Below are positions 8,505-64,000 of a DNA stretch of 64,000 bases, one piece after another. Both the position numbers and the translations under genes were made by a program. Origin of the DNA: Zanthoxylum bungeanum (taxonomy: Eukaryota > Streptophyta > Magnoliopsida > Sapindales > Rutaceae); contig SKCR01021130.1 of assembly GCA_019454045.1 (NCBI GenBank), positions 1-64,000 on the forward strand, in the 5' to 3' direction. Within the stretch, counting starts at the first letter, position 1. Each line of letters begins with the position of its first letter. Below the pieces are notes generated by a model that did not search any database, was not told where the DNA came from, and worked only from the letters and a program-made list of their open reading frames with translations.

Positions 8505-10021
8505 AACCTCATATCAAACCTAGGGTTTTATCCCAGTCTCTCATTATTCACTTCATTAACACCCCACTCTTGGTCGGAATTATTTCAACTGGCACTGCTA
8601 AAAAAACCCCATTTCAAATATCATTTTCCCTTCTCGTTTATCCCGCTTTCTCGGCGAGGAGCAAAATTTTGGAAAACCCTAGAATACTACAAAATTTGAA
8701 AATCTGGCACATCTACTCAGCTAACAAATCATAAAAGAATTTTATCTCGTTTGAATTGAAAACCCTGAAGAGCCAATTTGTTATTCAAAAACAGAGAATC
8801 GATACCTTGAATTGAAGAAAATTGAGCTAAATATTGAGACAAAAAAAAAAACTAATTAAAAACCCTAGATATGAAAAAAAAAATTGACCTAGTGAAAAAG
8901 GAAAAAACAAAAATAAAAAATAAAAAATAAAAAAGGGGGGTTTTGGGGATATGGAGGGAATTTTGAAAAATTGAAAAACAAATTGCAAAACCCAAAAACG
9001 AGGAAGTAGATCGCGTTGGGGAGACGATGAAATGAAGCTTTGGTGGGGTTTATTTATAAGCTTATTTACCTCACTTTTTTACCAGTACTCGCTCGCGTAC
9101 AGAAAGTCTGTACTCGCTGTATTGTGTAATGTAACGGGCCTTGTGACTCACCATTAGCAGCATCAAGAAATATGGGCCAGATTTTGATGCAGCAGTAGTA
9201 CTATTAGCACCCCTCAAAAGCTCCAATGAAACTCTTTTCTTATAATACCCCCATTCAATAAAAATTATATTATTTCTAAATAAACCCCCAGTGTAATTCC
9301 GCTAATACCCTTTATTCTACTTTTAAACCCAACATTGCCTCCTTGTTTTGCTCATCCACATCATACGTCGTGCTTCACTCACTGCAGTCTTCACATTCAA
9401 AAGCCCGTTGTATCACTGTGTTGTTTTGAATCTTTATCCCAATTTAATAGAATCGAATATACTGATATCGGAATCTATCACTATTAATAAAACTATCCGA
9501 TAAATTCGATATACGACTCATTTTATTAAAGACAAATATAATATATATCAAATTTAAAAAAATAAAATTAATTAATATCGTACATTTAATTATAGTTATC
9601 TAGGTAATGCAATTTCTTTAACATTTTTTCAAATTAGCAAATGCGATTTCCAACTTATTTCATTTTATAACTTTTTATTGATAGAGAATAAATCTATTAG
9701 TGCAAGTATAGATTTAGCTAGCTTAGAAATATTTTCATAGTTAACTTAATATAACTTAGAACTCTTGAATTTTTACTAATATATAAGTGAGAGTTAATAA
9801 AAAAATATGGAAAATTCAACATTAATAATTTATTTGAATTAAATACACATTTATTTAAGAAACTTTCAATCATTAATAATATAAGTTTTGAGATTGAAAA
9901 ATGTGAAAAGTTGAAATATTAATAACTCATTTGAAATGGTATGTATTTAATTAATGTATTTTCAATAAGTAATAATTTTGGAAAACGAAAAGTTTGGAGG
10001 ATATGGGAAAATAAAATATTA
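8505..10021 (-). promoter_or_regulatory. TAF8 upstream/leader region and flanking intergenic DNA
   Basis: On the minus strand this is the leader and promoter side of TAF8. 8,830-8,990 is very A-rich on the plus strand (T-rich leader on the coding strand), and a leader intron is possible but not proven. A drop to very AT-rich DNA occurs beyond about 9,420. No ORF was recognised. Confidence 0.4.
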
Positions 10022-10026
10022 GTGGT

Positions 10027-10658
10027 TGTAGACGCTGGTTTTCGCCCGAGGCCTACAATCGAGATTTCGTGAGAGAGGGGCATTGGCGTTCCTGCAAAAC
10101 AAAGAAAGTAGGGTGAGCGTGGAGGGTCTACCCACCGGTGTGGTGGATGTCGTAGGCACTCTGACGCCCAAGTCAGTGATGGAAATATGAAAGTAGTAGG
10201 TGGGGCTCAAGGTTAGATGCTACCTTGAACTTCGTAGGATGCCGTGAGGGCGGAAGGTTGATGATTATTCGGATTATGGAGTGAATGTTCTAAGGCTATG
10301 AGTATGAGAGCTCCCCTTCTCCCTAGACCTTCTTCGTTTATATACATGGCGTTAAGGGAGCATGTGCATTTACTGCTCTTTGATTACTTGTCTGTTGGGA
10401 GTCAGTTACGATTGACTTTATGAGGGGTATTTAGTGCATCTACCTGTTTGTAGGCTGGAACGGCTGGTTCTTGTTTATGAGGCTGGGCATTAAGTGGACT
10501 GGCCTTTGGATGGTCATTTGGTCACATGTGTTGAAACTCATTGGGCTTGGGCCTGTATTACGCCTTTGGGGTCTGGTTATAGGGTTTCAGGGGTGCATCC
10601 AGTAGTGGGCCTGAAGTGAAAGGTCGAAATTACCCTTGGACCAAATTTGGCCCATACA
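10027..10658 (-). repeat. LTR (3' LTR in element orientation)
   Basis: 632 bp, starting tgtagacgctgg and ending cccataca on the plus strand. It contains a TATA-like tttatata (10,337-10,344; minus strand tatataaa) placed as an LTR promoter would be for minus-strand transcription. Confidence 0.92.
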
Positions 10659-10774
10659 GTTTGTCCCCTACTCTCTAAGTCAATGAGTTATTGGCTTGGA
10701 GAGTACTTGACGCTTGTGTCGCTTGGGATGAGGCCTTGGTATGTAGGTATACCCGAGCGTTGATGCTACCTACT

Positions 10775-11145
10775 GATTGGACCAAACGAATGTGTAGTTA
10801 TGAATTTGACTCTACAAGAGCCATTGAGGAAGTACCCGGTCGACCGAACCAGATGATGGTCAGGATAATGAACTTGACTCTACCAGAGCCATTGGGGAAA
10901 TACCCAGTCGACCGAACCGGATGATGATCGGGATAATGAACTTGACTCTACCAGAATAATTGGGGAAGTACTCAGTCGACCGAACCAGATGATGGTCGGG
11001 ATAATAAACTTGACTCTACCAGAGTAATTAGGGTAGTACCCAGTTGACCGAACCAGATGATGGTCAGGATAATGAACTTGACTCTACCAGAGTAATTGGG
11101 GAAGTACCCAGTCGACCGAACCAGATGATGATCGGGATACAAGTC
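10775..11145. repeat. 68-bp tandem array inside the LTR element
   Basis: About five copies of a unit containing gaccgaaccagatgatgg; the aacc landmark recurs at 10,847, 10,915 and 10,983, a period of 68. Units differ by point changes. Confidence 0.85.
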
Positions 11146-11835
11146 ATACGACATGTGTAACCATGTCAATAAACGAGGCCTGATTTGAGTCCATGGGGAT
11201 GTCCCCGGTCGACTGGACTTGATGAGGCCAGGAAGATATAAGTCATACGACATGTGTAATCCATGTCTATAACTAGAATCGACATGAGTCCATGGGGATG
11301 TCCCCGGTCGACTGGACTTGATGAGACCGGGTAGATATAAGTTATACGACATGTGTAATCCATGTCTACAAATAGACTCGACATGAGTCCATGGGGATGT
11401 CCCCGGTCGACTGGACTTGATGAGACCAGGTAGATATAAGTTATACGACATGTGTAATCCATGTCTACAACTAGACTCGACATAAGTCCATGTGGGATGT
11501 CCCCGGTCGACTGGACTTGATGAGACCAGATAGATATAAGTTATACGACATGTGTAATCCATGTCTACAACTAGACTCGACATGAGTCCATGGGGATGTC
11601 CCCGGTCGACTGGACTTGATGAGACCAGGTAGATATAAGTTATACGACATGTGTAATCCATGTCTACAACTAGACTCGACATGAGTCCATGGGGGATGTC
11701 CCCGGTCGACTGGACTTGATGAGACCAGGTAGATATAAGTTATACGACATGTGTAATCCATGTCTACAACTAGACTCGACATGAGTCCATGGGGGATGTC
11801 CCCTGTCGACTGGACTTGATGAGACCAGGAAGACA
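11146..11835. repeat. 99-bp tandem array inside the LTR element
   Basis: Seven copies; gtccatgg recurs at about 11,189, 11,288, 11,387, 11,486, 11,586, 11,685 and 11,785. Because the period is 99 (divisible by 3) except for a few 1-nt shifts, long repetitive open frames appear on the minus strand; they are not taken as a protein. Confidence 0.9.
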
Positions 11836-14169
11836 TTTACTCGTCTGGAATCGAATGAGAGACCAAATCGAGTCTGCATGTTGTCTGGACCTAAAGAAGA
11901 TCCGGGTATTGACATATGTCGTACTCCATTACCTGCAAGTTTTGAAAACGTGAATCATGAAAGCGACAAAGAGCAAGTACATTTTGCCTGTCGTTTGGAG
12001 ACTTCATTGAGTAAGCTAGTTGATCTCTCCGTATCGATAAGCTATGTTGATTGAGTTGCTTTATCCAGTAGTCAGTTGGATGGTATATTTTTCTTTCGTA
12101 CTTGTCATTCGAAGGTTCCCCAATATATGAACGTCTTGTAGAGTTGAATGGGTGCCCAATTTATTACTGTGGTATAAGGATCGTGTCTACCTAATAGTTT
12201 TTTTTTTTTTTTCGTTTGTCTGGGATCATTTTAGACTACAAGTCATATATGCGAATAGTTTTGGTCTCTTATGCTTTGTGCGCCTCCCAATTTTGAACAT
12301 ACCGTGTGCATGGGCTCATCCTCTTCATGCATGTGGGGTCGCATTTCCCTTGTACTATCATTGCAAGCTTCTACTGGATCCCATGCGACAAAGAGTTGTG
12401 AATGGAGCCTTGTCGAATGAGCCACTCCTCCTTTGCATATAGTGTAGGGTTTATCTCTATTTTGTCGTTTTGTGAGGTTTCTTTGGTTTTGCTTGTCCTC
12501 GGCCTGTGGGCTTAAATATGTATAGAAGATTTTACATGAGTGGGTCGTCCCTTATGGTGGGCCTAGTATGTGCTCAGGAAGTCAAGTAAGTGGCTTTTTA
12601 TTATGGCTTGGGCTTACTTAGACATTAGGGGTTGGCGGTCGTAGCTTCTGGTCATGTGTTGATGGTCGTGAATGGACTTTGGCTGTTGAGACTGCATGTG
12701 AGCCCGCTTCGGACGCTCATTGTGTCGACTCGGCTAGAAGATACTCACGTACTGGATTCATACATGTTCACTAGAATGCATTTCCGTTATTAGATTCATG
12801 CACGTCGACTAAGGAAATTCATGTTGCTGAATTTATGCATGTCGGCTGGAAGATGTTTATGCATCAAAACGGTCTTTTATCCACAACCTGTTGTTTAAAC
12901 AGTAGCATGAGCTGTCTTCAGATGGTCTCTCCATAGTCGTACCACTGGACTTGATGGGTTGTCTCGTTTTGATGTCTTAGTGGAGGTCGGCTGGTGGCAG
13001 TCACAACTTGGTTGGATGCTCATCCGTCGACTTGAGGTATACAGGTTGGCTAGAGCCATGTACGTTAGCTGCATGTTGTTTAGAAACATTCAAGTTGGCT
13101 GGAGACACACACGTTACTGGAGGCATGCATGTCGGCTGGATCTTCAGCGTGTAAAGTCTTCTCTCATGTGCTCTCAGTGTCTTCATTTTCTTTGGATGCG
13201 TTCTTGGTGGCTTCAAGCTTGGTGGCAAAGCCACTTGGTTTGTGGTTGGCTTCGTAGGAATTCCATGGTTGTTTTTTTTGAGGATCGGTCGGAACCTTGG
13301 AAAGACCAGCCACAATAGACAGGCTTGTCCGTTGCCAAATAATGCAAAATACGGCCTGTGTCCTTTATTCTTTAGCTGCATATTCCCGCAATCTTCTCTT
13401 TCTTGAATGTAACTCTACTAATATGAACTGGTAGGTAGTTTCAAAAAAAATCCCAATTCACTGGCCTTCGATGGACTGGCAAAGCTTTCTCCGTTGGGCA
13501 GTGGTAACAAGTTGAAGAAGAAGACTAATTGGTGGTTTGTAACGATTATAATAGCCATAGTCGCAATTATGTACGTGTGGTTCCCAGTCTGCGTTTTTTG
13601 GACTTTGGCAGCTTGTTTGCAATGCGATGTGGGTTTGGTTTTGTCTTCAGCTCCTATTATGCTCCTCCTGAAATAACCGATGTGGGATTGATAGCCTAAT
13701 CGTGTGTGCTGGTTTAATGAGGATTGAGCACTCAGTTGGGCTTTTATTTCGGTCAGTGGGCTGGCCTGCTGTTTGTTCTTGGGCAATTGCTGAGGGTTGT
13801 GCTTCTCACTTGTGTTTTGTGCCAATTTGCTTCACTGCTAATGACCGTTGATCATGCACTGCTTAGTGTGGGTTGTTTGCACATCTTCTTTAGCGTGGAC
13901 TGGATGGTCTTTTGTTTGCCGATTGGTTGGCTTTGGGTTTTGGATTTTAGCTGATCATGTAGCTTTTATATCCTGGGCCATGTACTGAGGCTTTATTATT
14001 TTTTTTTAACAAGTGTAGACTGGATATTCCTCTAGGGTATGGAAAATTCGGATGCGTCTGGCCTAATTTTTTTTTTCGAGTGGAGATATAAAATCATGGT
14101 TGCATAATAGGACATGCTCATCACCTCCTGATACTGCTCAGTTGAAATATCCATAGACCTTGTGAAAGG

Positions 14170-15240
14170 TCAATAAGTCCATAGTAGACTGGACCCGAGG
14201 AGTGTCCATAAAGCAATTGTCTTCTGAACCTAATGGAGGTCAATGAGAGTCCACTCTACAGGATCCAAAGAGAATCCACGTGTCTACGACCGAATGGACC
14301 TGGTGGAAGTCCAAGAGGTTGTCCTCTTAGTCTATAAGACCTTTTGATGTCATTTAGAGAGTAACACAATCCTTCCATTCTTGTCGTCTGGAAGAGGTAG
14401 CATCATTTCATGTCTTATGGAGCAGACGACATTTTATTAATGTAGTCTGGGGAAGGTGACATTACATTTATGTAGTCTGGGGGAGATGGTAAGTCATACA
14501 TATCATCCAGAGGAATAACGATATTCTTCGTTGTTTGGAGAAGACGTCAATATTTGGATGTAGTAAGGAATTTGATGACCGCCTTGTTATATGGAAAAAA
14601 TGACTATCCTCTTATGTCCTCTGGGGGAGATAGAAACCATCCCACGTAGTATGATAAATCATATGCATGAAGTTGTTTGTCTAATGGTACCCCAGTCAAG
14701 CTAAGTATTATTCTATCTCATGTCTGATGGGATTTTAAACAAGTGTCAAGTCTCATACGTGGAGTGTCGAGTGAAATCTTTGCTAAATACTAAACTATCA
14801 TATAATGTCGATTGTGACAAGCTGTGTGTAGTATTGTTAATTGGGATATTTCTAACAAGTCTTATGTCAGACATTGTTAATGTCGACTGAGCCGTCCATA
14901 AGAATTACCTAGATGTAAATTGTAGTATCGACTGGGACAACCGTAGCAAGTCTCATACTATAAATTGTAATACCAACTATGACATCTATTTCAAGTCTCA
15001 CGCCACATATTGATGTCGATTGGGACACTCATAATAATTACCAAGTTGTAAATTGTAGTGTCGATTGGGACACGTATAACAAGTCCCAAACTATGACACA
15101 TATTATAAGTTCCAGGCTTTATTAATGTCGACTGAGAAATTCCTTAAAAGTGCCAGACATACCTGGTAATGTTGACCGGGATGTCCACGTTAAGTCTTCA
15201 TTTGGGTATTGTCGACTGGGACATCCTCCTCACGCCAAGT
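14170..15240. repeat. Degenerate short-period repeats in LTR-element interior
   Basis: The phrase gtcgactgggaca and variants (gtcgattgggaca, tcgactgagaaat), each followed by caagtctca-like words, recur about every 60-75 bp. They are too diverged to set a clean unit. No coding motif. Confidence 0.6.
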
Positions 15241-15908
15241 ACATCGCTTCATCATATGAGGTGAAATGGTAGGAAGTATAGTTCCATCGAAGGGACGTGC
15301 ATTGTTCATGGAGTAGATGTTAATCCTCTCATGTCGTTTGAAGAAGATGACACCGCTTTCATATGGTGTGAAGGAGATTAAGATTCATCCATTTCGTCTG
15401 AAGAATATGAAAATCTTCATACGTAGTGAGAGGTTGATAATGATCAATCTGCGTAGTCTGAATATATCTCGGCTCGGCTTTTTCTTATTGGTAGCCTGAC
15501 TCCAGGTAGATTTGAGAGAATTGTTCTTTTGAACTCTTGCATTTCCTTTCGCATGGAGGAGGTGACTTGTTGTGATTGGTCTGCTGGAGAGATATGGCTT
15601 CTTCTTTGGTGATTTAGTGGATGGTCGTCTGATGGTGGATTTTCACTTGTCATATTATTGAATGCTCCTAAGAGATTGAGTTAGATGATAGGATTGTTGG
15701 GGCGACCCGTAGCCTCGAGCCTTTGGGAGGTTGAAGAAATGTGCACCAATGTTTGTAATTATTCTTGGGGGATGGCTAATTAAGTAGTCTTGAGATCTGG
15801 TGTTTGCTCATTCCATGAGGCCATATGAGTAGGGGTGTCTGAAAGGATCGTAGAATGAGGTTTCTTTGCACGCTATGAATCGCCAAGGCCCCACGGTGGG
15901 TGCCAAAC

Positions 15909-16530
15909 TGTAGACGCTAGTTTTCGCCCGAGGCCTACAATCGAGATTTCGTGAGAGAGGGGCACTGGCGTTCCTGCAAAATAAAGAAAGTAAGGTGAGC
16001 GTGGAGGGTCTACCCATCGGTGTGGTGGATGTCGTATGCATTCCGACGCCCAAGTCAGTGATGGAAATATGAAAGTAGTAGGTGGGGCTCAAGGTTAGAT
16101 GCTACCTTGAACTTCGTAGGATGTCGTGAGGGCGGAAGGTTGATGATTATTCAGATTATTGAGTGAATGTTCTAAGGCTATGAGTATGAGAGCTCCCATT
16201 CTCCCTAGACCTTCTTCGTTTATATACATGGCGCTAAGGGAGCATGTGCATTTACTGTTCTTTGATTACTTGTCCGTTGGGAGTAAGTTACGATTGACTT
16301 TATGAGGGGTATTTAGTGCATCTACCCGTTTGTAGGCTGGTTTTTGTTTATGAGGCTGGGCATTAAGTGGGCTGGCTTTGGATGGTCCTTTGGTCACAGG
16401 TGTTGAAACTCATTGGGCTTGGGCCTGTATTACGCCTTTGGGGTCTGGTTATGGGGTTTCAGGGGTGCATCCAGTAGTGGGCCTGAAGCGAAAGGTCGAA
16501 ATTACCATTGGACCAAATTTGGCCCATATA
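15909..16530 (-). repeat. LTR (5' LTR in element orientation)
   Basis: 622 bp, the partner of 10,027-10,658, ending cccatata followed by the TSD gtggt. The primer-site-like phrase lies at 15,885-15,908 on the minus strand. Confidence 0.92.
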
Positions 16531-16535
16531 GTGGT

Positions 16536-35804: not shown

Positions 35805-37730
35805 ATAGATGCAACTTCATACCATCAAAATGCAATTTCACCATTAAGATGCAACTTTCAACCTTAAAAGATGTAACAAATATTTTAAACTTGAAAAACA
35901 AAAAATTAAATAATTTTTAAGAAAAAACCACTCAACATTTGTGCTAGGGCGCATAAATATGACCATTGAATATGCAACTTCAACCAATAAACTTGCAACT
36001 TTCATCAATAAATATGCAATATTTCGAAGATGAAACATTTAGCAATAAACATACAAAATGAAACCATTAGACTTGTAACTTTAGCAATAACATGCAATTG
36101 CATCTACCTCGAAAATCGCACCTGCAACTATGACCGTTGAATATGCAACTTCTACCATTATACTTGCAACTTTCATCAATAAATATGCAATATTTCGAAG
36201 ATGAAACCTTTAGCAATAAACATGCAAAATGAAACCATTGGACTTGAAAATTTAGCAATAACATGCAATTGCATCTACCTCGAAAATCGCACCTGCAACT
36301 ATGACCGTTGAATATGAAACTTCTACCATCAAACATGCAACTTTCACCAATAAATATGCAATATTTCGAAGATGAAACCTTTAGCAATAAACATGCAAAA
36401 TGAAACCATTGGACTTGAAATTTTAGCAATAACATGCAATTGCAGCTGCCTCGAAAATCGCACCTGCAACTATGACCGTTGAATATGCAACTTCTACCAT
36501 CAAACATGCAACTTTCACCAATAAATATGCAATATTTCGAAGATAAAACCTTTAGCAATAAACATGCAAAATGAAACCATTGGACTTGAAATTTAGCAAT
36601 AACATGCAATTGCAGCTGCCTCGAAAATCGCACTTGCAACTATGACCGTTGAATATGCAACTTCTACCATCAAACACGCAACTTTCACCAATAAATATGC
36701 AATATTTCGAAGATGAAATTTTTAAAAATAAACATGAAAAACGAAACCATTGGACTTGAAATTTTAGCAATAACATGCAATTGCATCTGCCTCGAAAATC
36801 ACACCTGCAACTATGACCGTTGAATATGCAACTTCCACCATTAAACTTGCAACGTTCACCAATAAATATGCAATATTTCAAAGATGAAACCTTTAGCAAT
36901 AAACATGCAAAATGAAACCATTGGACTTGAAATTTTAGCAATAACATGCAATTGCATCTGCCTCGAAAATCACACCTACAACTATGACCGTTGAATATGC
37001 AACTTCTACCAGGAAACATGCAACTTTGACCAATAAATATGCAATATTTCGAAGATGAAACCTTTAACAATAAACATGCAAATTGAAACCATTGGACTTG
37101 AAATTTTAGCAATAACATGCAATTGCATCTGCCTCGAAAATCGCACCTGCAACTATGACCGTTAAATATGCAACCTCTACCATCAAACATGCAACTTTCA
37201 CCAATAAATATGCAATATTTCGAAGATGAAATTTTTAGCAATAAACATGTAAAATGAAACCATTGGACTTGAAATTTTAGCAATAACATGCAATTGCATC
37301 TGCCTCGAAAATCGCACTTGTAACTATGACCATTGAATATGAAACTTATACAATTAAACTTGCAACTTTCATCAATAAATATGCAATATTTCGAAGATGA
37401 AACTTTTAGCATTAAACATGCAAATTGAAACCATTGGACTTGAAATTTTAGCAATAACATGCAATTGCATCTGCCTCGAAAATCGCACCTGCAACTATGA
37501 CCGTTAAATATGCAACCTCTACCATCAAACATACAACTTTCACCAATAAATATGCAATATTTCGAAGATGAAATTTTTAGCAATAAACATGCAAAATGAA
37601 CCATTGGACTTGAAATTTTAGCAATAACATGCAATTACATCTGCCTCGAAAATCACACCTGTAACTATGACCATTGAATATGCAACTTCTACCATTAAAC
37701 TTGCAACTTTCACCAATCAATATGCAATAT
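35805..37730. repeat. 171-bp tandem satellite array in the MULE
   Basis: The landmark ctcgaaaatc recurs at about 36,109, 36,280, 36,451, 36,621, 36,792, 36,962, 37,133, 37,304, 37,475 and 37,645: ten units with period 170-171, plus degenerate copies at the left edge. Each unit contains several atgcaa/tgcaac words. Because 171 is divisible by 3, long repetitive Cys-rich frames are open on the minus strand (36,067-36,639 and 36,552-37,634); these are judged products of the repeat, not a gene. Confidence 0.95.
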
Positions 37731-45362: not shown

Positions 45363-45697
45363 TGTTGAAGCCAGCACACTGCATGCATGCAGACATCAAA
45401 GTGCAAGCTGCAGAAGAAACCAAATCCACCGAAAGCAAAGTTGACAAAGTGGTATGAAAATGGTAAGCTGGCAAAACGTGTCTAAGGCGTGTGACACTGT
45501 TCACGCGTCTTGGGCACTATAAAATGGAGCCTGAAGATCATTTCTAAGTATCCCAGAAGTGAGTTTAATAAAGAGTAAAGTGGTGTGAGAGTTTTTTGTA
45601 AAGCTTGAGTTAGTAAGCTTTGTAATTCTTTTGTTTGTAATATAAAAGAAGAGTTTTCTCTCCAATCACCTCTATTATTGTGTGTTTAATCACAACA
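45363..45697 (+). repeat. Copia 5' LTR
   Basis: 335 bp, tgttgaagcc...cacaaca. TATA box ctataaaatgg at 45,518-45,528, so transcription probably starts about 30 bp further on. Confidence 0.97.
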
Positions 45698-45699
45698 AG

Positions 45700-45711
45700 T
45701 GGTATCAGAGC
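45700..45711 (+). other. Primer binding site (tRNA-Met)
   Basis: tggtatcagagc, an exact match to the standard plant copia primer site, two nucleotides after the LTR end. Confidence 0.95.
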
Positions 45712-45974
45712 TAAGGTTACTCGGAGGGATCCCGAAACTCGGAAACAGAGATTCGGTTCGGAAAGTCAGTTCAGACAAAAGCTGTCGAAAATCGATTTTG
45801 AGCATACCATCAGACTTTTCACGGCGAGACGAGCAAGGTCGTATTTTCCGGCGATCGAACGGAGGTCTGAGGACGTCGCGCGCGCCACGCGCCAGACAGA
45901 GCGTTCTTCACGCGCCATATGCGCATTTCACGCACCCCACGCGCTGCAGAGGAAGAAGACGACTGCCACGTCAG

Positions 45975-46310
45975 CAGTCCAGTCAGCGCCACGTGTCGCC
46001 CAGTCAGCGCACAGTCAGCAGCCCAGTCAGCGCCACGTCAGCGCCCAGTCAGCAGCCAGTCAGCTGCCACGTCATCCGCCATGTCAGCACGTGCCACGTC
46101 AGCGGTGTCTGGTAAATTGCAGATATGTCCCTTAACTTTCTGGAAATTACAATTTAGCCCCTATACTTTCAGAAATTTTCAATTTAGTCCCTGAACTTTT
46201 TTGGAAATTGCAACTTAGTCCATGAACTTTTCCGTAATTTCATTTTGGCCCCTGAACTTTTGGAAATTGTACTTTGACCCCTGTAATTTCTGAAATTTGC
46301 AATTTGGTCC
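45975..46310 (+). repeat. Two short-repeat tracts in the copia leader
   Basis: First, 45,975-46,110: repeated cagtcagcgccacgtcagc words. Second, 46,120-46,310: six variants of a 35-38 nt unit around aatttagtccctgaactttt, gaaattgcaactta. Both lie between the primer site and the gag start and are non-coding. Confidence 0.8.
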
Positions 46311-46410
46311 ATGTGTCGGATTTTGACAAACGAAGTGTCATTTCCACCATTTTCGACCATTCCGGACGCAACAGTGAGGTCCGTTTTTTGAAATTCTGCT
46401 TAGAATTTTT

Positions 46411-47250
46411 ATGATGGAGGGGAGCAACGGAAAAATGATTTTGTTAACCAGTACAAACTATTTCACATGGAGAGGAAGGATGAAAGACCTTCTGTATGTG
46501 AAGGACTATGATGGATCGGTGTTTCTGGAACAGAAACCAGAAGGAATGACCGATGGAAAGTGGGCTAATCTTCACCAGAAAACATGCAGTACTATTCGTC
46601 AGTGGATCGACGACAGTATCGTAAACCATGTCAGTGAAGAGATAAATGCACGTGTCTTATGGAGAAAGCTGGAGGAGCTTTTCCGAGCAAAGACTGGAAA
46701 CAACAAGTTGTACTACATCAAGAAGATGATGGGTTTGAAATACCATGAAGGTACAGCTGTGGCGGACCATATCAACGATTTCCTCGGCACCATGAAAGAA
46801 CTGTCTGGATTGGGCATAGACTTCGGAGATGAGGTAAATGGCTTAATACTCCTTAATACGTTACCAGAATCTTGGGAAACGTTCAGATCTACGGTGATAA
46901 ATTCAGCCGCAGATGGGAAAGTCACTATTGAGATGGCAAAGACCAGGATCTTCGAGGAAGAAAAGAGGACGAGAATGCAAGAGTCAGCATCAGCCTCAAC
47001 CTCAGAAGCTCTAGTGACAGAAAAGAACACCAGAAGGGGGAGGAGTAAAAGCTGAGGCCCAGGTAGACCAGACAAGAATCGGGGGAAATCAAGAACAAGA
47101 GATATTGAGTGCTATCACTGTAAAAAGAAAGGCCATATGAAGATGGACTGTTACAAGTTAAAGAATGAGCAGTCCAGGAGAGATGTTGACTCTAATCAAG
47201 AAAGAGTTGCTACTACCACCGAGAAAACCTCCAAAGAATTTCATATAATA
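46411..47250 (+). pseudogene. Copia gag (in-frame TGA)
   Basis: Opens at 46,411 with MMEGSNGKMILLTSTNYFTW, typical of Tork-lineage Gag. Continuous to 47,052, where TGA follows GRSKS; CGA (Arg) to TGA is the likely change. The same frame then resumes with the CCHC zinc knuckle CYHCKKKGHMKMDC (about 47,109-47,150). The reading frame has to move from this frame to the protease frame between about 47,220 and 47,255. Gag would form the virus-like particle in the cytoplasm; only a version lacking the knuckle could be made from this copy. Confidence 0.9.
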
Positions 47251-47255
47251 TATAT

Positions 47256-48596
47256 GAAGAAGATGTTGTGAATCTTGCCAGCCACGAGACCAATTGGGTG
47301 ATAGATAGTGGCACATCCATACACGCCACATCTCGCAGAGACTTCTTTTCATCTTACACACCAGGGGACTACGGTGCTGTAAGGATGAGGAATGACGGCC
47401 AGTCCAAAGCCGTCGGTATTGGAGACATCTGCCTTGAAACAGACAACGGAACAAGGCTAGTGTTGAAGGGAGTCAAGCACATCCCAGACATTCGGTTAAA
47501 CCTGATCTCAACAGGCAAGCTGGATGATGAAGGTTTCTGCAGCACCTTTAGTGACAGATGTTGGAAGCTCACTAAAGGATCAATGGTCGTGGCACGAGGT
47601 AAGAAAGACTCAACTCTGTATTTGATGCATGCTAAGCTTTCAAATAGTAGCATAAATACAGTCAACAGTAATGAGGCAGCCGAGCTATGGCATAAAAAGC
47701 TCGGTCACATGAGCCAAACAGGGATGGAGATACTACGTAGGCGGAATGTTCTTCCGGAACTGAAGAACTCACACTTACGGAAGTGTGAACACTACATGGC
47801 TGGAAAGCAGAACATAGTATCCTTCCAGAGCTCCCCGCCTCAACGGAAACCGGAGGTACTAGATCTCATACATTCAGATGTATGTGGTCCGATGCAGATA
47901 CGAACACTCGGAGGGTCACTGTATTTTGTGACATTTATTGATGATCATTCAAGGAAGACCTGGGCATACACCTTGAAGAGAAAAGATCAAGTGCTGGGAG
48001 TGTTCAAGGAGTTTCATGCTTTGGTGGAGAGAGAAACTGGCAAGAAACTGAAGTGCATCAGAACAGACAACGATGGAGAATACAGAGGTCCGTTTGATCA
48101 GTACTGCAAGACGCAAGGAATCCGACATCAAACGACACCTTCAAAGACACCTCAGCTTAATGGCCTAGCTGAGAGGATGAACAGAACCTTGTGCGAAAGG
48201 GTCAGAAGCTTGCTGTCACAAGCCAAGCTACCGAAGACATTTTGGGGGGAGGCACTCAACACAGCAGTACATGTTTTGAACATGTCCCCAGCGGTCGCAC
48301 TGAAAGGTAATGTTCCTAACCAAGCTTGGACAGGTAAAGAAGTGTCATACGAGCACTTACATGTCTTTGGGTGCAAAGCTTATGTACACATCCCAAAGGA
48401 CGAGAGATCCAAGCTTGATGCAAAGACGCGACAATGTGTCTTTATTGGCTATGGTCAGGATGATTTTGGCTACAAACTGTATGATCCTATGGAAAAGAAG
48501 ATTGTCAGAAGCCGAGATGTTGTCTTTGTTGAAGACCAGACCATAGAAGATATCCGGAAGGAATTGAAGACAATGCCCAGCAATACAGAAATGTGA
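47256..48596 (+). pseudogene. Copia protease and integrase
   Basis: Open for about 445 codons. Protease: NWVIDSGTSIHAT, with catalytic DSG at about 47,305-47,313. Integrase: zinc-binding part LWHKKLGHMS then LRKCEHYMAGKQ, where the second Cys of the HHCC motif has become Tyr (TAC, 47,793-47,795). The catalytic core keeps D (HSDVCGPM), D (IRTDNDGEY) and E (NGLAERMNR), followed by the GKR-like region FGCKAYVHIP. Ends at a TGA (48,594-48,596) caused by a frame change: the downstream sequence continues in another frame from about 48,590. Confidence 0.92.
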
Positions 48597-50329
48597 ATCC
48601 AGAACCTCATACACCGGTGCCAGTACGAGTTGAAGATGAGGTTCCCAGACATGAGGGTACATGTGATGAAGCTCCCAGAGATGATGATCATGATCAACCA
48701 CCAGTACCAGAAGTTCCACCAACAGTTCCACAGAGAAGGTCTGACAGAGAGAGGCGACCTTCAACCAAATACTCTGCATATGAGTATGTGCTGCTTACTG
48801 ACGGGGGAGAACCCGAGAGCTACTAGGAGGCTGTGGAAACAGAAGACAGAGAAAAGTGGGAGGAAGCCATGCAAGATGAGATGAAATATTTGCATGACAA
48901 TCACACTTTTGAGTTGGTGAAATTGCCAAGAGGCAAAAGGGCTTTGAAGAACAAATGGGTGTACAGAGTGAAGCAACAAGAGCATACTTCACAACCCCGG
49001 TACAAAGCCAGACTAGTTGTCAAGGGATTCAATCAGAGGAAAGACATTGACTTTGATGAAATCTTCTCTCCAGTTGTGAAGATGTCATCCATCAGAGTAG
49101 TACTCAGCTTAGCAGCAAGCCTCGACCTGGAAGTTGAGCAGATGGATGTCAAGACCGCATTTCTTCACGGAGATCTGGAAGAAGAAATTTATATGGAGCA
49201 ACCAGAAGGCTTCAGAGTCAGAGGGAAAGAGGACTATGTGTGCAGACTCAGGAAAAGCCTATATGGTTTGAAACAGGCACCGAGACAGTGGTACGTGAAG
49301 TTTGAGTCAGTTATGGGGGAGCAGGGATACAAGAAGACTACTTCAGACCATTGTGTTTTCGTTCAGAAGTTTTCTGACGATGACTTTATCATCTTACTGT
49401 TATATGTAGATGATATGTTGATAGTTGGCCGGAATCAATCGAGGATTGATAATTTGAAGCAACAACTGACTAAGTCTTTTGAGATGAAAGACTTGGGGCC
49501 AGCTAAACAGATTCTTGGCATCAGGATCGGTCGTGATCGGAAAGCCAGGAGATTATACTTGTCACAGGAGGAGTACATCGAGAAGGTACTTCAGAGATTC
49601 CAGATGGACAAGGCTAAAGTGGTTAGCACTCCTCTTGCTACCCACTTTAGATTGAGTACACAACAGAGTCCCTCTACTGAGTCAGATAAGGAGGAAATGA
49701 AACAGGTTCCATACACCTCAGCAGTGGGAAGTCTTATGTATGCCATGGTGTGCACGAGGCCAGACTTAGCACACGCAGTTGGATTGGTCAGCCGGTTTAT
49801 GGCAAACCCAGGAAAAGAACACTGGAATGCTGTCAAATGGATTATGCGGTATCTTCGAGGAACATCCAAGATGAGTTTATGTTTTGGAAGCAGCAACAAG
49901 CTAGTGTTGATGGGCTACACCGATTCAGATATGGCAGGAGATGTGGATACTCGAAAGTCTACTTCGGGGTATCTGATTACTCTCTCAGGAGGAGCTGTGG
50001 CATGGCAGTCTAGGTTGCAGAGATGTGTTGCACTTTCTACAACAGAGGCAGAATTCATTGCAGTTACAGAAGCTTGCAAGGAATTACTGTGGATGAAGAC
50101 ATTCGTCCAAGAATTGGGTTTCAAGCAGGAGAAGTACATCTTGTACTGTGATAGTCAGAGTGCTATCTATCTCGGTAAAAGTTCCACATTTCATTCGAGG
50201 TCAAAACATATCGATGTGAGGTATCACTGGATACGGGACGTCCTGAGCTCAAGGCTGTTAGAACTCAGGAAAATTCACACCGACGACAACGGTGCCGATA
50301 TGTTCACGAAGGTTTTACGGCCGGAATGA
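48593..50329 (+). pseudogene. Copia reverse transcriptase and RNase H (one in-frame TAG)
   Basis: The frame runs from 48,593 through a linker (PVPEVPPTVPQRRSDRERRP) to TAG at 48,824-48,826 (CAG to TAG likely). It is then open from 48,827 to the TGA at 50,327-50,329. RT motifs: NKWVYRVKQQ, QMDVKTAFLHGDLEEEIYME, SLYGLKQAPRQWY and the catalytic YVDD at 49,403-49,414. RNase H: catalytic residues in YTDSDMAGD, TTEAEFIA, CDSQSAI and DNGADMFTK all kept. This half is intact apart from the TAG. Confidence 0.93.
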
Positions 50330-50506
50330 CAAAACTCTCCACATAGTCAGAGTGGAGAGATTCAGAGAACTATGATTGGCTTGATCCCAACTCAGGGTAC
50401 GTAGGCAGTCATACAGATGCAGCCAGAGGAGGATCCTTTGGAGCATCCGATTTGGATAATTGATGGTCAGCTCAGATTTAGAGAAATCTTCACCGAGGGG
50501 GAGATT

Positions 50507-50841
50507 TGTTGAAGCCAGCACACTGCATGCATGCAGACATCAAAGTGCAAGTTGCAGAAGAAACCAAATCCACCGAAAGCAAAGTTGACAAAGTGGTATG
50601 AAAATGGTAAGCTGGCAAAACGTGTCCAAGGCGTGTGACACTGTTCACGCGTCTTGGGCACTATAAAATGGAGCCTGAAGATCATTTCTAAGTATCCCAG
50701 AAGTGAGTTTAATAGAGAGTAAAGTGGTGTGAGAGTTTTTTGTAAAGCTTGAGTTAGTAAGCTTTGTAATTCTTTTGTTTGTAATATAAAAGAAGAGTTT
50801 TCTCTCCAATCACCTCTATTATTGTGTGTTTAATCACAACA
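50507..50841 (+). repeat. Copia 3' LTR
   Basis: 335 bp, the partner of 45,363-45,697, preceded by the polypurine tract and followed by the TSD ctcac and the rest of host exon 1. Confidence 0.97.
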
Positions 50842-56283: not shown

Positions 56284-58200
56284 GACTGTTCAGTTATATA
56301 AGTGTGTGTTTTGAATAATGAAACTCGTCTGCTCTCCCTCCTGTCCCCAGTTTCCTGTTAGCATGTATCCAATTATTCTACTGGATTCAAAGTCCATTAA
56401 TCAGTTTGAGAGACTTTGTTTATTATTTGTTACAGTGAACACTATCTATTTGATGCCAATTTAGCTATAATTAATCTAGGCTGTCAAAAATGTACTACTT
56501 ATTAGGAGTACGTTGTCTCTATTGTAAAAGGCACAACATTCTCTGGAAGATAACGGTCTTGTTTGGTACTATGATAGTAATCTTAAAATATAATTTTTAA
56601 GTATTTTATTAATATTTAAAAAAAAATATAATTGTGATTTTAAAATTTTTCTGGGTTTTATAAAATTAAAATTTATGATTTTTATTCACCATCAAAATTT
56701 CACGAATGCATATTGTAATTAATTTTTTAACATAATATAAATTATATATCATCTTTTATAAAATTTTGTTTGTTTTTATATTTTTTTAATCATAACACCA
56801 AACATAGCAAACATAAACTAAACTTTGAGATTGATTGACAGTTTGACACTGAAATGTGGTATATACTAGCCATTTGAACTCATGATGGTATCTGGAAATC
56901 AGTAGCTAATTACTCCAAGTGTGATTTGTGATTAATAAAAAACAATTGAGGATTAATTAAAAATTAATCGTAAAGAATAAAAATGATATTTTACGTAGGT
57001 GAGAATAAAAAATTTAAAACTAATCTTTGAAAATCCTCCAAAAAATAATTAAAATAATTTATTTATATTGAAAACAGACTAAACAATCTAAGATTTTTCA
57101 GTTCAGTAGATATGAATGAGGATAATTTTGATACAAATAGAAAATATTATCCTTATTTAAGAAAATGTAATAAATTAATGATATTAGTTTTATTATTTTA
57201 TCTTCCAACAAAATCATTATATTTTTCATACAAAATTATCAATCAAAATTCCAAAAAAAAAATTGAAAAATTGAAAAATAGATTAAAAATGAAATCAGAT
57301 AATTTTTGAGAAATCAAAAATTGGTTGATTAATCGGTCAAAATCACCCAAAGATCAGTGTCGGTTTAAATCAATCAAAAATCAGTGTTGAGTTAAAGTGG
57401 TTAAAATTTATCAGATCGAATCACTTAATATCACATGATGGTACTAGTCATTGCTTATTCTTTTATATACACGACCAAGTTGGATTTTTTGCCCCTACCT
57501 CTCTCAAGATTTTGCACACACTACAAATTACTAAATTTGACTTAGTCTTCCCAAAATTTGAGAAAATGCATAATATGAAAGTTATAGATCTATGTTTAGG
57601 TTTTCCAACGATATTAAAATGACTGAAAACGAAAATCTGTAATTCATGTTATGGTCAAAATATCAAAAACTGTCATAAAGCGCTAATAATACATAATTAT
57701 GATTATGTACTAAAATGCTGTTTCACACATGTAAAAGTAACCATCATGAATGTGTTATCTGTTACATAAGGTGTTATTATGGATGGATACGTGACTTTAT
57801 AATTGTTTTTGTAATAATAGATCTTTATAACTTAGGGGGAATTATTTATTAATCCAAAACCCAGGGTCACGTGAGTAAAAAGATAAGCAGGAAAGAAAAT
57901 TATATTTAGCCTACATAGTGTAAAAAGAGAAAAATTGAGAGTGGTTGTTGTTGGGGAAGAATTTGACCAAATTCCTAAGGAAATTCATCTCAGACGTGAC
58001 TAAAAAATTGTTTGTTTGTTTGTTTTTCCTAAGTTTTAATTTTAAAATTAAATATTTTTTTAAAAATATATAGTGTTTCATGGAAAATTAAAAATTACAT
58101 TTTATTGATTTATAAATTATAAGTTTTTAAGAAAGTATCATTATCAATATATATATATATATATATATATTTAAAAAAAAGGATTAAGCTCAATGGAATG
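56284..58200. other. AT-rich intergenic DNA with one MITE-like inverted repeat
   Basis: 3' region of the complex I gene, then AT-rich DNA. At 56,559-56,806 the left end tgtttggtactatgat and the right end atcataacaccaaaca pair imperfectly (13 of 16), an old MITE without clear TSD. A (TA)n run lies at 58,146-58,170. No gene found. Confidence 0.55.
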
Positions 58201-58993
58201 TGTTGATGGTGTTTTCAGGCACTATGATATTTAAAACAACACGACAATGGTAGAAGAGTAATTCTCTTCTTGGGTGAGATCATTAATACCGACCCGACCC
58301 ATAAAAAGCCAGCAGTAAGGGCCCGATCGCTTTACAATAAAAGGCCGACCACCTTATAAATTACAAAGACCGACCACAACAGGAAAAGATCGAGCACTTT
58401 ATGATCGGTAACCGAGCACTTGAGTTCAAGATGACCGGGCACTTATCAGGTCGACAGTAGCACTCCCAGTACAAAAGACTATCATGACCGACCACATGAA
58501 GACCGGGAGTATGGCAGGATATGCTCCAGAAGATAAAGTTATCATACTTTCATGGGAAAACTGAGGAGTCAGAGCCCTAGTAGGATAAAAGAAAGTAAAA
58601 GTAAGATTTAGTTAGGAAACCTTGCAGGAGAAGGAAATTGTATCAACTAGGAATCTTTATACTAGAAGGAGTCTGATTTCTTCACTATTATAAATAGAAG
58701 GGTAAAGTATGTGCAAAAGACATCAGAATCATCAAGCTCTGACTTGTAAAGACAGAATAGATCTGAGAATCGTGTTTGAGTAATAAAAATATCATCATGT
58801 TCGTGTCCGTGGATGTAGGTCGGATCCGAATCCACCGAACCACGTTAAATCTTTTTATTGATTGGCGCATTATCTATCTTCTGCTAAGTTTGCTTTTGGT
58901 TTCCCCCATAACCAAACAAATTCACTATTGAAGGAGGATTACCTCGGGAGTGATATTCCCATATTGCCCTGAGACCAAAATCCACCGTCAACA
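58201..58993 (+). repeat. 5' LTR of the gene-carrying element
   Basis: 793 bp, tgttgatggtgttttc...ccgtcaaca. TATA box tataaatag at 58,689-58,697. Contains several gaccgacca/accgagcac words. Confidence 0.93.
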
Positions 58994-59334
58994 GTTGGCG
59001 CCGTCTGTGGGGACCTTTCAACAAAAAGAAATTCACGAAAAAGACAATGGCATAAGGCGGAAATCATCAATCTTCAAGGAGTCCCACAACAGACTGGTTG
59101 GTAGATATCGTCGTTTGTTGTCTTTAGCTTGGAGGTACGATCTCCCTACAAAATTACGATTATATTCTTCTCAAATTCAATTCCTGGAAGCATAACTAAA
59201 TTACCCCGAAATGCTGTCAAAGCGAATTAGTGGTCCGTATAGAACAAGTAATATTAATTCTTAATCGGATTACAAAATTTTGTATGCAATTTGGATTGAT
59301 TAGTTTAGGGGTAGATTTTTAATTTGAATACGTA

Positions 59335-59704
59335 ATGGCGAGTGGTGGTGATGAGGACGGCGATGCCGTGCTGAGTGACGTGGAAGGCGAGATCGATGTG
59401 CAAACTTCGTCTGATGAAGATTTTACCGTCGAGAGATTTCGCGAGGTTCTGGCGGAGTTAAATCGCGAGAGGCAAGCTCGGGCAGCGGCGGAGAATTCGG
59501 CGACTGAGTTGAGCGAGAAATTCAACCGATTGAAAGCTCTCACACACGAGTCAATCAAGCGGCGAGACGAGAGCATAAGGCAGAGAGACGAAGCACTGGG
59601 CGAAAAAGAAGAGATTTTGAGGTCAAACGAGAAAGCTGTCGACAGAAATAGCAGAAGCTAACAAAGCAAAAGAAGAAATAAGGCGCTGCACTGTAGAGTT
59701 TTGA
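59335..59704 (+). pseudogene. Captured 5' part of a coiled-coil protein gene
   Basis: Opens MASGGDEDGDAVLSDVEGEI, then an acidic region and a heptad-rich helix: FREVLAELNRERQARAAAEN, FNRLKALTHESIKRRDE, RQRDEALGEKEEI. This matches the N-terminus of a conserved plant coiled-coil protein family (I recall Arabidopsis At1g24560 as similar; not certain). A frame change at about 59,640 moves EIAEANKAKEEI into another frame, followed by a stop at 59,702. Only about 120 residues of a much longer protein are present. The 330 bp before the ATG look like its own untranslated leader rather than retroelement gag. Not expected to be functional, though the first 108 residues are open. Confidence 0.65.
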
Positions 59705-59845
59705 AATTGGTTAGTTTCTGAATCTTTTATAATGTCGGGAAATCTTGGTAGTGGTGCTAATATAGATGCAGACGGTAGTTGGTGGGGCCAGAACCAGTGC
59801 CATTTGCTTGATCTGGAAGCTCTTTCTTTTCAAAAGGGTAATCTT

Positions 59846-59911
59846 CCTACGGGGTCTACAAGATTTACACACAAGGGGCCTACTGGGTCTACAAAATTTA
59901 CACACGAGAGG
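59846..59911 (+). repeat. 33-bp tandem duplication in the captured BRR2 piece
   Basis: cctacggggtctacaagatt at 59,846 and cctactgggtctacaaaatt at 59,879; period 33, in frame (TGSTRFTHKGP / TGSTKFTHE). Confidence 0.85.
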
Positions 59912-61150
59912 TATGAAGAAATTCATGTGCCAGCTATGGAGTGTAAGCCATTAGATCCTACTGAAAAGTTGATAAAGATCTCTGAGATGCCAGAATGGCC
60001 ACAATCAGCTTTCAAAGGAATGACACATCTGAACAGAGTACAGAGTAGAGTCTATAAAACTGCTATAGATTCAGCCGATAACATCCTGTTGTCTGCGCCC
60101 AGTGGTGCCAGAAAAAACTAATGTTGCTGTGCTCACTATACTTCAGCAGTTAGCATTGAACAGGAACGATGATGGTTCATTCTAACATAAGAATTATAAG
60201 ATTGTCTATGCGGCATATATTAAAGCTCTTGTCGCTGAAGTTGTAGGTAATTTGTCTAATCGTTTGCAAATATATGGTGTGAATGTAAGGGAGCTGAGTG
60301 GAGACAAAACACTCACTCGCCGAGAAATTGAAGAAACCCAAAAGATTGTAACTACTCCTGAGAATTGGGAGATTATTACAAGGAAATCAGGGGATTGCAC
60401 CTACTCAGTGCTTGCGAAGCTGCTTATAATTGATGAAATTCATCTGCTTCATCATAATAGAGGACTTGTGCTTGAAAGTATTGTTGCAAGAACATTAAGG
60501 CAGGTTGAAACAACAAATGATCGCATTCGGTTGGTTGGGTTATCTGCTAACACTCCAAATTATTATGATGTGGCATGTTTTTACATGTGGATTTGGAGAA
60601 AGGTTTATTCCAGTTTGACAATAGTTACAGACATCTCCCACTTGATCAACAGTATATTGGGATCCAAGTTAAGGAGCCACTGGAAAGGTTTAAGTTGATG
60701 AAGGATATATGTTATGAAAAGGTTGTGGCTGTTGCTGGAAAGCATCAAGTTCTTATTTTTGTCCATTCTCAAAAGGAGGCAGCAAAACAGCTAGTGCAAT
60801 ACGAGATACTGCACTTGAGAACCTTGGTAGATTGTTGAAGGAAGACAGTATGAGCCATAATGTTCTAGAAAATTGCACAGATAAGGTCAAGAGCAGTGAT
60901 CTTAAATGTCTTCTGCCGTATGGTTTTGCTATTCATCATGCTGGGACGACAAGTGGTGACTGTCAACTTGTTGAGGATCTTTTTGGTGATGGGCTTCTAC
61001 AGGTATTGGTTTCCACTGTAACTCTTGCTTGGGAGGTGAACTTGTGTGCTCACACAGTGATCATCAAAGGAACCCATATTTACATCCAGAGAAAGGGGCT
61101 TATATGGAGCTTAGTCCTCTGTATATCATGCAGATTCTTGGTAGTGCTAG

Positions 61151-61552
61151 ACGGACAAAGTATGATTCATACAGGGAAGGGATTATCATTACCGGTCACT
61201 CTGAACTTTGGGAATATCTTTCTTTGATAAATCGACAGCTTCCTATTGAAAGTCAGTTCATTTCCAAGCTGGCTGATCAGTTGAATGCAGAAATCATCCT
61301 TGGAACTGTACAAAATGCTAAAGAAGCCTGCAAATGGATTGCATATGCTGGACGGACAGAGTATGATTCATACAGGGAAGGGATTATCATTACCGGTCAC
61401 TCTGAACTTTGGGAATATCTTTCTTTGATAAATCGACAGCTTCCTATTGAAAGTCAGTTCATTTCCAAGCTGGCTGATCAGTTGAATGCAGAAATCATCC
61501 TTGGAACTGTACAAAATGCTAAAGAAGCCTGCAAATGGATTGCATATACTTA
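61151..61552 (+). repeat. 201-bp in-frame tandem duplication in the captured BRR2 piece
   Basis: acggacaaagtatgattc at 61,151 and acggacagagtatgattc at 61,352; the copies are almost identical over 201 bp (67 codons, [20 protein letters not shown] ... KEACKWIAY). The frame stays open across the join (61,029-61,574). Confidence 0.93.
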
Positions 61553-61899
61553 CTATTACATCCGTATGTCATAAAATCTGGTGGTCTATGATTTGTCACC
61601 CGAGGCTCTCAAAGAAGACATAACATTATGGGAGAGGATGGCTGATTTGATTCAAACAGCTGCCACTATCTTGGACAAAAATAATTTGGTCAGGTATGAT
61701 AGGAAAAATGGATATTTCCAAGTTTCGGAGTTGGGTTGTATTTCCAGCTATTATTATATAAAGTCACAGGACAATATCCTCATATAATGAGCATTTGAAG
61801 CCAACAATGGGGTACATAGGGCTCTTTTCGGTTGTTCTCTCAGAGCGAAGAATTCAAATATGTGACAGTGAGAGAATATGAGAATATAGAGCTGACATT

Positions 61900-62135
61900 T
61901 CACAGGACGAGGTTTCGTAGTGTAGGTTCAGGGCTGGGTTTGTCCCGCCGAGGCCTTTGTGTGCAATCGGTGTTCGGGGCTGGATTCGTTCCACCGAGGC
62001 CGCTTGATTATTCGGCTCGGGGCTGGATTTCGTTCCGTCGAGACCACTTGATTATTCGGCTCGGGGTCGGGTTACGTCCCACCGAGTCATGCTCATTGGT
62101 CTGGGGACGGGACATTCCCCCAGAACCAAATATCT
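61900..62135 (+). repeat. ggctcgggg(c/t)(t/c)gg..ccgccgagg repeats, first block
   Basis: About four variants of tcggggctggattcgttccg ccgaggcc spaced 40-60 bp, starting right after the BRR2 homology ends. Confidence 0.8.
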
Positions 62136-62169
62136 CTTTAGCTCGGGGTCCTCAGAATATTCAGGGACA

Positions 62170-62600
62170 TAATCGATGCATAGGATCCGTGAGAAGCATA
62201 GCACGGGGATGGATGATACCCCTGTGGCGATTGCTTGCTCCAGTGTTACCAAACATAAGGAGGAATGTGCCCTTAATGTTTCGAACACTCTCTGATCCTC
62301 ACTTACCCAATGTAATGGATCCGTGAGAAAGCATAGCACGGGGAGAGACGATGCCCCCGTGACGATTGCTTGCTCCAGTGACACCGGACCTAAGGAGGAA
62401 TGTGCCCTTAGCATCCCGGACACTCTTTGATCCATTCATCATTTGGATCCAAGAGAGGCGCAGCACGGGGAGGCGTTGTGCCCCCGTGGCGTGTGCCTGC
62501 TCCAGCGCGGTAAGGAGGTGCCCCCACACAAATACACAGGCTCCACAGTGACCTGACGTATATAGGATGTGCCCTTACCATTTAAACGCTCTACTGATCC
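62170..62600 (+). repeat. About 130-bp tandem repeats
   Basis: Three copies of a unit containing ggatccgtgagaa, catagcacgggga, cccctgtggcga, ttgctccagtg, taaggaggaatgtgccctta and acactc(t/t)ttgatcc. The cacgggga landmark recurs at about 62,201, 62,337 and 62,465. Confidence 0.85.
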
Positions 62601-62866
62601 AAATCCTGGTTCGCCGGGACTCTGAATTGAAAGATTCAGGATTGTGTTTTGGAAACCTCGAACAGGACGCTGTTTTAAGGAATCCGTGCTGATTGTTTAT
62701 ACTTTAGAATTTTGTTTTGGGATAAGTGCTAAGTCACCCCCGCCTTTTAAATTTTATTTTCAAAGCTTTGTTTTTGTTTTTCGCTGGTCTGGCAAGGGGA
62801 CACCCGTGCCAGATTCGGTAGGGCTTCAAAAGGTTGATTCACTTCCCTTCTGAATAAATCCCAATG

Positions 62867-63345
62867 GTTAATCGGCTCGGGGCTGGATTTGTTCCGCCGA
62901 GGCCACTTGGTTAATCGGCTCGGGGCTGGATTTTTTCCGCCGAGGCCACTTAGTTAATCGGCTCGGGGCTGGATTTGTTCCGCCGAGGTCAGTTGGTTAA
63001 TCGGCTCGGGGCTGGATTCGTTCCGCCGAGGTCACATGTTTCTTTCCGGCTCGGGTCTGCTCTTGTACCGCCGAGACCGATGTTTCCTTCCGGCTCGGGT
63101 CTGCTCTTGTACCGCCGAGATCGATGTTTTCTTTCAGCTCGGGGTCGGGTTAAGTCCCACCGAGTCGGCTTCTTTGGACTGGGGATGTAATATTCCCCCA
63201 GTGCCAAGTCTTTTTTCAGCTCGGGGTCAGGTTAAGTCCCACCGAGTCGGCTTCTTTAGACTGGGGATGTAACATTCCCCCAGAGCCAAGTCTTTTCTCA
63301 GCTCGGGGTCGGGTTACGTCCCACCGAGTCGATCGTTATCAGCAT
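62867..63345 (+). repeat. 43-bp and about 80-bp tandem arrays before the 3' LTR
   Basis: Four copies of ttaatcggctcggggctgga + tttgttccgccgagg (about 43 bp, 62,867-63,040), then two of ctcgggtctgctcttgtacc, then three of an approximately 80-bp unit with cagctcggggtcgggtta, cccaccgagtcg and actggggatgtaa. Confidence 0.88.
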
Positions 63346-63556
63346 AAAGGCAAAGCATTTTTCTCCACTGGTAGATATCGGGATCCTCGTTGACTGAGCA
63401 CATGAAGGTGGCAGGAAGGACCAGATTTGCAGCCAATGTATTTTTTCTCTGCGGTTCCTGGAGTGACCACCGACGGATTCATCGGCACACCATCTTTTTT
63501 TTATAGTTCCCGGCATCAACTCGTATACTCGTTGGAACCGATAACTAGGGGACAGA

Positions 63557-64000
63557 TGTTGATGGTGTTTTCAGGCACTATGATATTTAAAACAGCACGA
63601 CAATGGTAGAAGAGTAATTCCCTTCTTGGGTGAGATCATTAATATCGACCCGACCCATAAAAAGCCAGCAGTAAGGGCCCGATCGCTTTACAATAAAAGT
63701 CCGACCACCTTATAAATTACAAAGACCGACCACAACAGGAAAAGACCGAGCACTTTATGATCGGTAACCGAGCACTTGAGTTCAAGATGACCGGGCACTT
63801 ATCAGGTCGACAACAGCACTCCCAGTACAAAAGACTATCATGACCGACCACATGAAGACCGGGAGTATGGCGGGATATGCTTCAGAAGATAAAATTATCC
63901 TACTTTCATGGGAAAACTGAGGAGTCAGAGCCCTAGTAGGATAAAAGAAAGTAAAAGTAAGATTTAGTTAGGGAACCTTGCGGGAGACGGAAATTGTATC
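63557..64000 (+). repeat. 3' LTR of the gene-carrying element (partial)
   Basis: First 444 bp of the LTR, aligned without gaps to 58,201-58,644; truncated by the window end. Confidence 0.93.

Follow-up and report, generated by a model that had tools for sequence, protein, structure and literature searches.

A putatively Gypsy-type LTR retrotransposon of Zanthoxylum bungeanum carrying pieces of two host genes, very probably acquired as mRNAs through template switching

The DNA analyzed here (the window) is a 64,000-nucleotide stretch of Zanthoxylum bungeanum (contig SKCR01021130.1), corresponding to C18238:1-64000 in the 3.96-Gb host assembly, and at its end lies a long terminal repeat (LTR) retrotransposon that holds pieces of two host genes, a coiled-coil protein gene and a BRR2-like helicase gene, both in sense orientation. 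The complete element occupies C18238:58201-64349 (6,149 bp); the window edge cuts off the 3' LTR after 444 bases (63557-64000), and the remainder was read from the assembly contig. The 5' LTR (58201-58993) and the 3' LTR (63557-64349) are 793 bp each and identical at 772 of 793 positions (97.35%; 21 differences, no gaps; Kimura two-parameter (K2P) distance 0.0271), and 430 of the 444 bases of the repeat visible in the window match (58201-58644 and 63557-64000). Both are in direct orientation and of the TG..CA type, with the termini TGTTGA and TCAACA. The target-site duplication GAATG flanks the element on both sides (58196-58200, with its partner at contig 64350-64354, beyond the window), which speaks against an unrelated tandem duplication, a possibility raised in the first-pass annotation of this DNA.

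The features of the element and its cargo given here are all on the plus strand. The element leader with a remnant gag start (58994-59090) contains the primer-binding-site phrase TTGGCGCCGTCTGTGGGGA (58995-59013), which recurs nearly identically in relatives and which may be tRNA-Asp-like, and the remnant gag itself opens with an ATG at 59047 and meets a stop at codon 3. On the other side, G+C-rich tandem repeats (61888-63546, about 1.66 kb) form the element's own 3' region outside the cargo, part of which is 87-92% identical to 33 other places, and the polypurine-like tract AGGGGACAGA (63547-63556) stands directly before the 3' LTR. The region 58000-64000 contains 30 open reading frames (ORFs) of at least 50 amino acids, and the 19 element ORFs scanned (9 + 10) gave no match to a gag or pol family at E <= 0.1; tRNA and Rfam scans of the window also gave no matches. 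The element is an LTR retrotransposon without its own gag and pol, that is, it is not autonomous, and the first-pass annotation was right about the LTRs, the primer and polypurine phrases and the missing gag and pol.

Relatives of the element indicate what the cargo has replaced. LTRs 85-93% like those of the window were found at no fewer than 38 other places among the 40 scored of 7,982 candidates. Sixteen loci (L034-L049) have a leader that is 93-96% like that of the window; all of them align through the first seam, and 14 open with the gag start MAEGGNHQSS. In C34444 and C40016, LTRs about 10-11 kb apart enclose RNase H and then integrase domains, the order known from Ty3/Gypsy elements, and C34444 also has the gag start; C35755 has reverse transcriptase, RNase H and integrase zinc domains. 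In C44853, the LTR pair is 97.4% identical and a 700-amino-acid ORF matches Retrotrans_gag (E 1e-9), with no pol match in the one other ORF scanned; a gag-only family, considered from this locus, was ruled out by the reverse transcriptase, RNase H and integrase domains in C35755, C34444 and C40016. As judged from these sequences, the group appears to be Gypsy-type, with gag-pol members as well as shorter derivatives. The window element shares LTRs (up to 93%), leader (93-96%) and 3' repeats with the gag-pol relatives, but whereas these keep the gag start and pol domains, it has neither beyond the first codons, and the stretch that runs from roughly codon 17 of gag up to the 3' region is cargo, apparently in place of gag-pol. 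Copies with gag-pol around nested host pieces, which would have undercut the first-pass reading, did not appear; in the relatives, gag-pol is in place of the host pieces, not around them.

The first piece of cargo (59091-59679) comes from a coiled-coil gene. It is 589 bp long, not about 370 bp as first estimated, and consists of a leader of about 245 bp followed, from the ATG at 59335, by roughly 115 codons from the start of an At3g49055-like 'paramyosin' gene. A genome search placed its source at C9121:44547-45134 (minus strand), which is collinear and 97% identical, and a paralog at C50252 is 82% identical; these searches scored few candidates (40 each for coil and BRR2), and copy numbers are lower bounds. 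The leader had been recognized before, and was then seen as leaving other routes of capture open; it is collinear with the C9121 gene's own upstream sequence. C9121 holds a one-frame stretch of 461 codons, 87% identical to a Citrus protein. The coil piece has 87% amino acid identity to Citrus; its matches included ones named paramyosin and uncharacterized protein At3g49055, and among the best 120 of 143 matches the best named ones were from Citrus, followed by other Sapindales. A 1-base insertion near codon 100, common to both known copies of the element, breaks the frame.

The second piece (59677-61893, about 2.2 kb, first put at about 2.16 kb) is derived from a BRR2-like gene and comprises an upstream exon end, a 55-bp leader, an ATG at 59732 and the first helicase cassette. 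Three of its ORF pieces match solved BRR2 chains (E 1.7e-46, 6e-36 and 1e-23), the top row for one of them being the related ASCC3 (4e-52), and the named matches in the protein collection are BRR2/DExH12. However, the source is a degenerate paralog family rather than an open-frame BRR2 gene. Two open-frame BRR2 first exons exist in the assembly (C36561:324645-327605, 94% to P0005, and C23071:190272-193205, 92%; the call covers the first exon only), but five other loci (C5196, C25046, C14515, C36695 and C47378) resemble the cargo more closely, at 96.3-97.4% over 1,926-2,000 aligned bases, with the 97.4% to C5196, and at 93-98.6% in single pieces. These five loci start at about residue 419 of P0005, share with the cargo frame changes near residues 690 and 760, and extend past it into the Sec63 and second-cassette regions; a short start ahead of them resembles the BRR2 N-terminus and suggests that residues 10-418 or so have likely been deleted. 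The degenerate gene is itself repeated: across several kb the five loci are 96-99% alike, and their flanks can be aligned in part. Further loci are confined to the N-terminal BRR2 region and mostly contain stops. With the coil gene and these five loci, both parents of the interior were found in the host genome.

The BRR2 piece carries six frame changes and two in-frame stops, and 55 of 286 columns invariant across 35 plant BRR2 proteins are altered; the cargo encodes no working helicase. A 201-bp tandem duplication (61145-61546) is found in neither the sister copy C15258 nor any of the five source loci. Decay at the protein level, which at first pointed to an old capture, was dropped as a clock, as the source is a degenerate paralog only 3-4% from the cargo. 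Near-identical short sister ORFs were not seen in the protein collection, where the 120 listed of 206 matches were all at most 80% identical.

An RNA route is indicated by the removal of introns from the BRR2 piece. Capture by Pack-MULEs or Helitrons takes place at the DNA level and keeps introns. The second intron is present in all five source loci as GATTTG^GTAAGC...TTTCACAG^ATTCAAA (550-569 bp), whereas both element copies read GATTTGATTCAAAC at the site (junction 61649-61650), an exact removal. The first intron is found in four of the five loci as GCACTGTGG^GTACATTT...TTTAG^GGTTTTG (365-403 bp) and is missing from both element copies (junction 59696-59697), where C15258 has exactly GCACTGTGGGGTTTTG and the window copy the same with two G-to-A changes. 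Because these two introns are exactly missing from both copies, the BRR2 cargo is spliced mRNA, in agreement with the intron-free cassette and mRNA capture first proposed. The second intron is conserved in plant BRR2 and is old: among the best 120 of 1,105 protein matches, 66 switch directly after the ..ADL at this site to unrelated tails that start with V[SRTCG] or AS; by our classification 30 others read on past it, two of them doubtfully, and in the remaining 24 no such motif was matched.

The three seams each lie at a short stretch shared by both sides. Seam 1 between element and coil (59091-59097) has the 7-nt microhomology AGACTGG, with CAACAGACTGG present in 13 of the 16 relatives; seam 2 between coil and BRR2 (59670-59676) has the 7-nt AAGAAGA; and seam 3 between BRR2 and element (61889-61894) has the 6-nt GAGCTG, a motif also present in three relatives (L051-L053). 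In a simulation of random breakpoints for the element-coil and coil-BRR2 pairs (200,000 draws per pair), 7 nt occurred in 0.06-0.07% and 6 nt in 0.20-0.23% of draws. No poly(A) run was seen, by eye, at the ends of the coil and BRR2 pieces. A pre-existing fused coil-BRR2 locus was also considered and rejected, as five BRR2 stretches of 8.6-9.9 kb contained no coil match.

The same cargo was found in one sister element, C15258:17724-26747 (9,024 bp), which has the same seams around coil and BRR2, an identical polypurine-like tract and the target duplication ATTTT on both sides; its LTR pair is 98.2% identical (K 0.0181). Its 3' repeat array of about 81-bp units (C15258:22270-25540) is far longer than that of the window copy. 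The LTRs of the two copies are only 82% alike, and the 5' LTR differs at 130 of 713 sites (18%) while the cargo differs at 80 of 2,587 (3.1%; Fisher p 3e-39, descriptive). The last difference ahead of the coil seam is 7 bases away, and differences rise mildly past the BRR2 seam (27/419, p 0.0015). One cargo is found in two LTR types, and therefore exchange took place after capture. For timing, K to the source is 0.0243 (window) and 0.0279 (C15258) for the coil and 0.0265 and 0.0376 for BRR2 against C5196, and between the two copies it is 0.024 (coil) and 0.034 (BRR2). The window values (0.024 and 0.027) are close to the window LTR divergence (0.027), and on these distances capture and window insertion seem nearly contemporary. 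At a rate of 1.3e-8 per site and year, the capture would be about 1 million years old.

We consider it very likely that a Gypsy-type LTR retrotransposon acquired two host mRNAs via template switching in reverse transcription. Copying would have proceeded from the element RNA's 3' end, with a first switch at GAGCTG to spliced BRR2-like mRNA transcribed from a degenerate gene, a second at AAGAAGA from there to the At3g49055-like coiled-coil mRNA, and a third at AGACTGG back to the element RNA at about gag codon 17; gag, and pol so far as the donor had any, would have been skipped between the switches. The product, with LTRs, primer-binding site and purine tract, could have moved through the proteins of its relatives, and the cargo's later entry into an element with LTRs of another kind would most likely reflect copy-choice recombination. 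The structure of the element, its sources, the two intron removals, the seams and the two copies can be read directly from the sequences, whereas we infer the single particle, the order of the switches and the helper proteins. The fullest version of this account, in which two unrelated mRNAs, one from a transcribed degenerate gene, were joined within a single cycle through three switches at microhomologies, after which the double cargo was moved as an exchangeable module by copy-choice to another LTR type, seems to us evenly balanced between right and wrong.

Several points weigh against capture by template switching. The evidence throughout is genomic DNA sequence. The captured coil part sits inside a single exon of C9121, hence the coil piece gives no evidence of intron loss, and the upstream (donor) exon pattern of the first BRR2 intron was not found in C47378. 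At seam 3, base 61888 is element-type and outside the six shared bases. In addition, no one-piece intermediate was found among the 40 candidates scored each for coil and BRR2.

Among the alternatives, two separate captures, with the mRNAs taken up one after the other in different transposition cycles, are a real possibility, although we think the chances are somewhat against them. Each seam has its own microhomology, so that a single cycle is not required; however, neither a BRR2-only nor a coil-only element was among the matches scored, the seams are common to both known copies, and the coil and BRR2 pieces are similarly diverged from their sources in the window copy. A second alternative concerns only the later exchange: genomic gene conversion, and not reverse transcription, may have transferred the cargo from one LTR type to the other. 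The same outcome would be expected (3.1% difference in the cargo, 18% in the LTRs), but within either copy the two LTRs belong to a single type and match almost completely (97.4% and 98.2%), like a fresh product of reverse transcription, and we regard conversion as unlikely. A chimeric processed pseudogene made by a long interspersed nuclear element (LINE) and later entering an LTR element would explain the spliced state, and LINE template jumps have been reported to yield chimeric pseudogenes in a fungus (PMC2104539); yet neither piece has a 3' end or poly(A) and the outer seams share microhomology with the element itself, which makes this origin highly improbable. Capture at the DNA level, through ectopic recombination, a Helitron or Pack-MULE type of process or nested insertion, has precedent in plant DNA transposons that capture many gene fragments (PMC13317346), but it can hardly be maintained when two introns are exactly gone (a refutation for the BRR2 piece, not formally for the coil piece) and gag-pol is missing, not interrupted.

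Compared with known systems, the window element illustrates a known process, that of maize Bs1, with unusual clarity, and its two-gene capture is rare. Bs1 contains three host-gene fragments inside an LTR element (PMC13317346) and is similar in having several host-gene fragments within LTRs; here, too, host fragments have moved with LTRs (two copies with the same seams), and the BRR2 piece is spliced. In contrast, Bs1 involves other genes and another family, whereas the sources, lost introns and seams of the window element are legible in the same genome, and unlike Bs1 it has no fused open frame, its pieces being broken. In maize B73, 425 intact LTR elements with gene fragments, representing at least 189 captures, were reported (PMC2774510). 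Under the conditions of that survey, none of these elements combined fragments from two or more standard nuclear genes. The first-pass annotation had likewise supposed that a spliceosomal helicase together with a second gene in one element would be unusual. LTR-mediated retroposition driven by microsimilarity, in which the template changes from element RNA to mRNA or back inside the particle, is reported for the work of Tan et al. (2016) in PMC5408686; the title of the 2016 paper names metazoans, whereas the window element has two tandem mRNAs, one from a degenerate gene. LTR elements are stated to flank most plant retrogenes, with Arabidopsis an exception according to reports of that time (PMC4838847), and among the papers searched none was found on BRR2 captured by an LTR retrotransposon. 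In our judgement, captures by LTR elements frequently rest on homology alone. Here, sources, lost introns, seams, gag-pol relatives and a second copy in one genome allow the template-switching model to be tested base by base, and it holds. One element can thus carry two mRNAs, transcripts of degenerate genes can be captured, and cargo can cross LTR types.

The rest of the window contains other repeats and genes. An LTR-like pair (10027-10660 and 15909-16532, 94.6%) bounds a region (10027-16532) with a minus-strand primer-binding-site-like phrase and 68- and 99-bp tandem repeats, and about 10 copies of a 171-bp tandem repeat, 93% alike, occupy 35958-37730. At 45363-50841 lies a young Copia-type element with 335-bp terminal repeats (99.1%) and gag, integrase and RVT_2 ORFs. 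Pfam matches indicate an auxin-responsive (SAUR-type) gene at 6039-6542 (plus strand) and a TAF8-like gene at 7389-8513 (minus strand).

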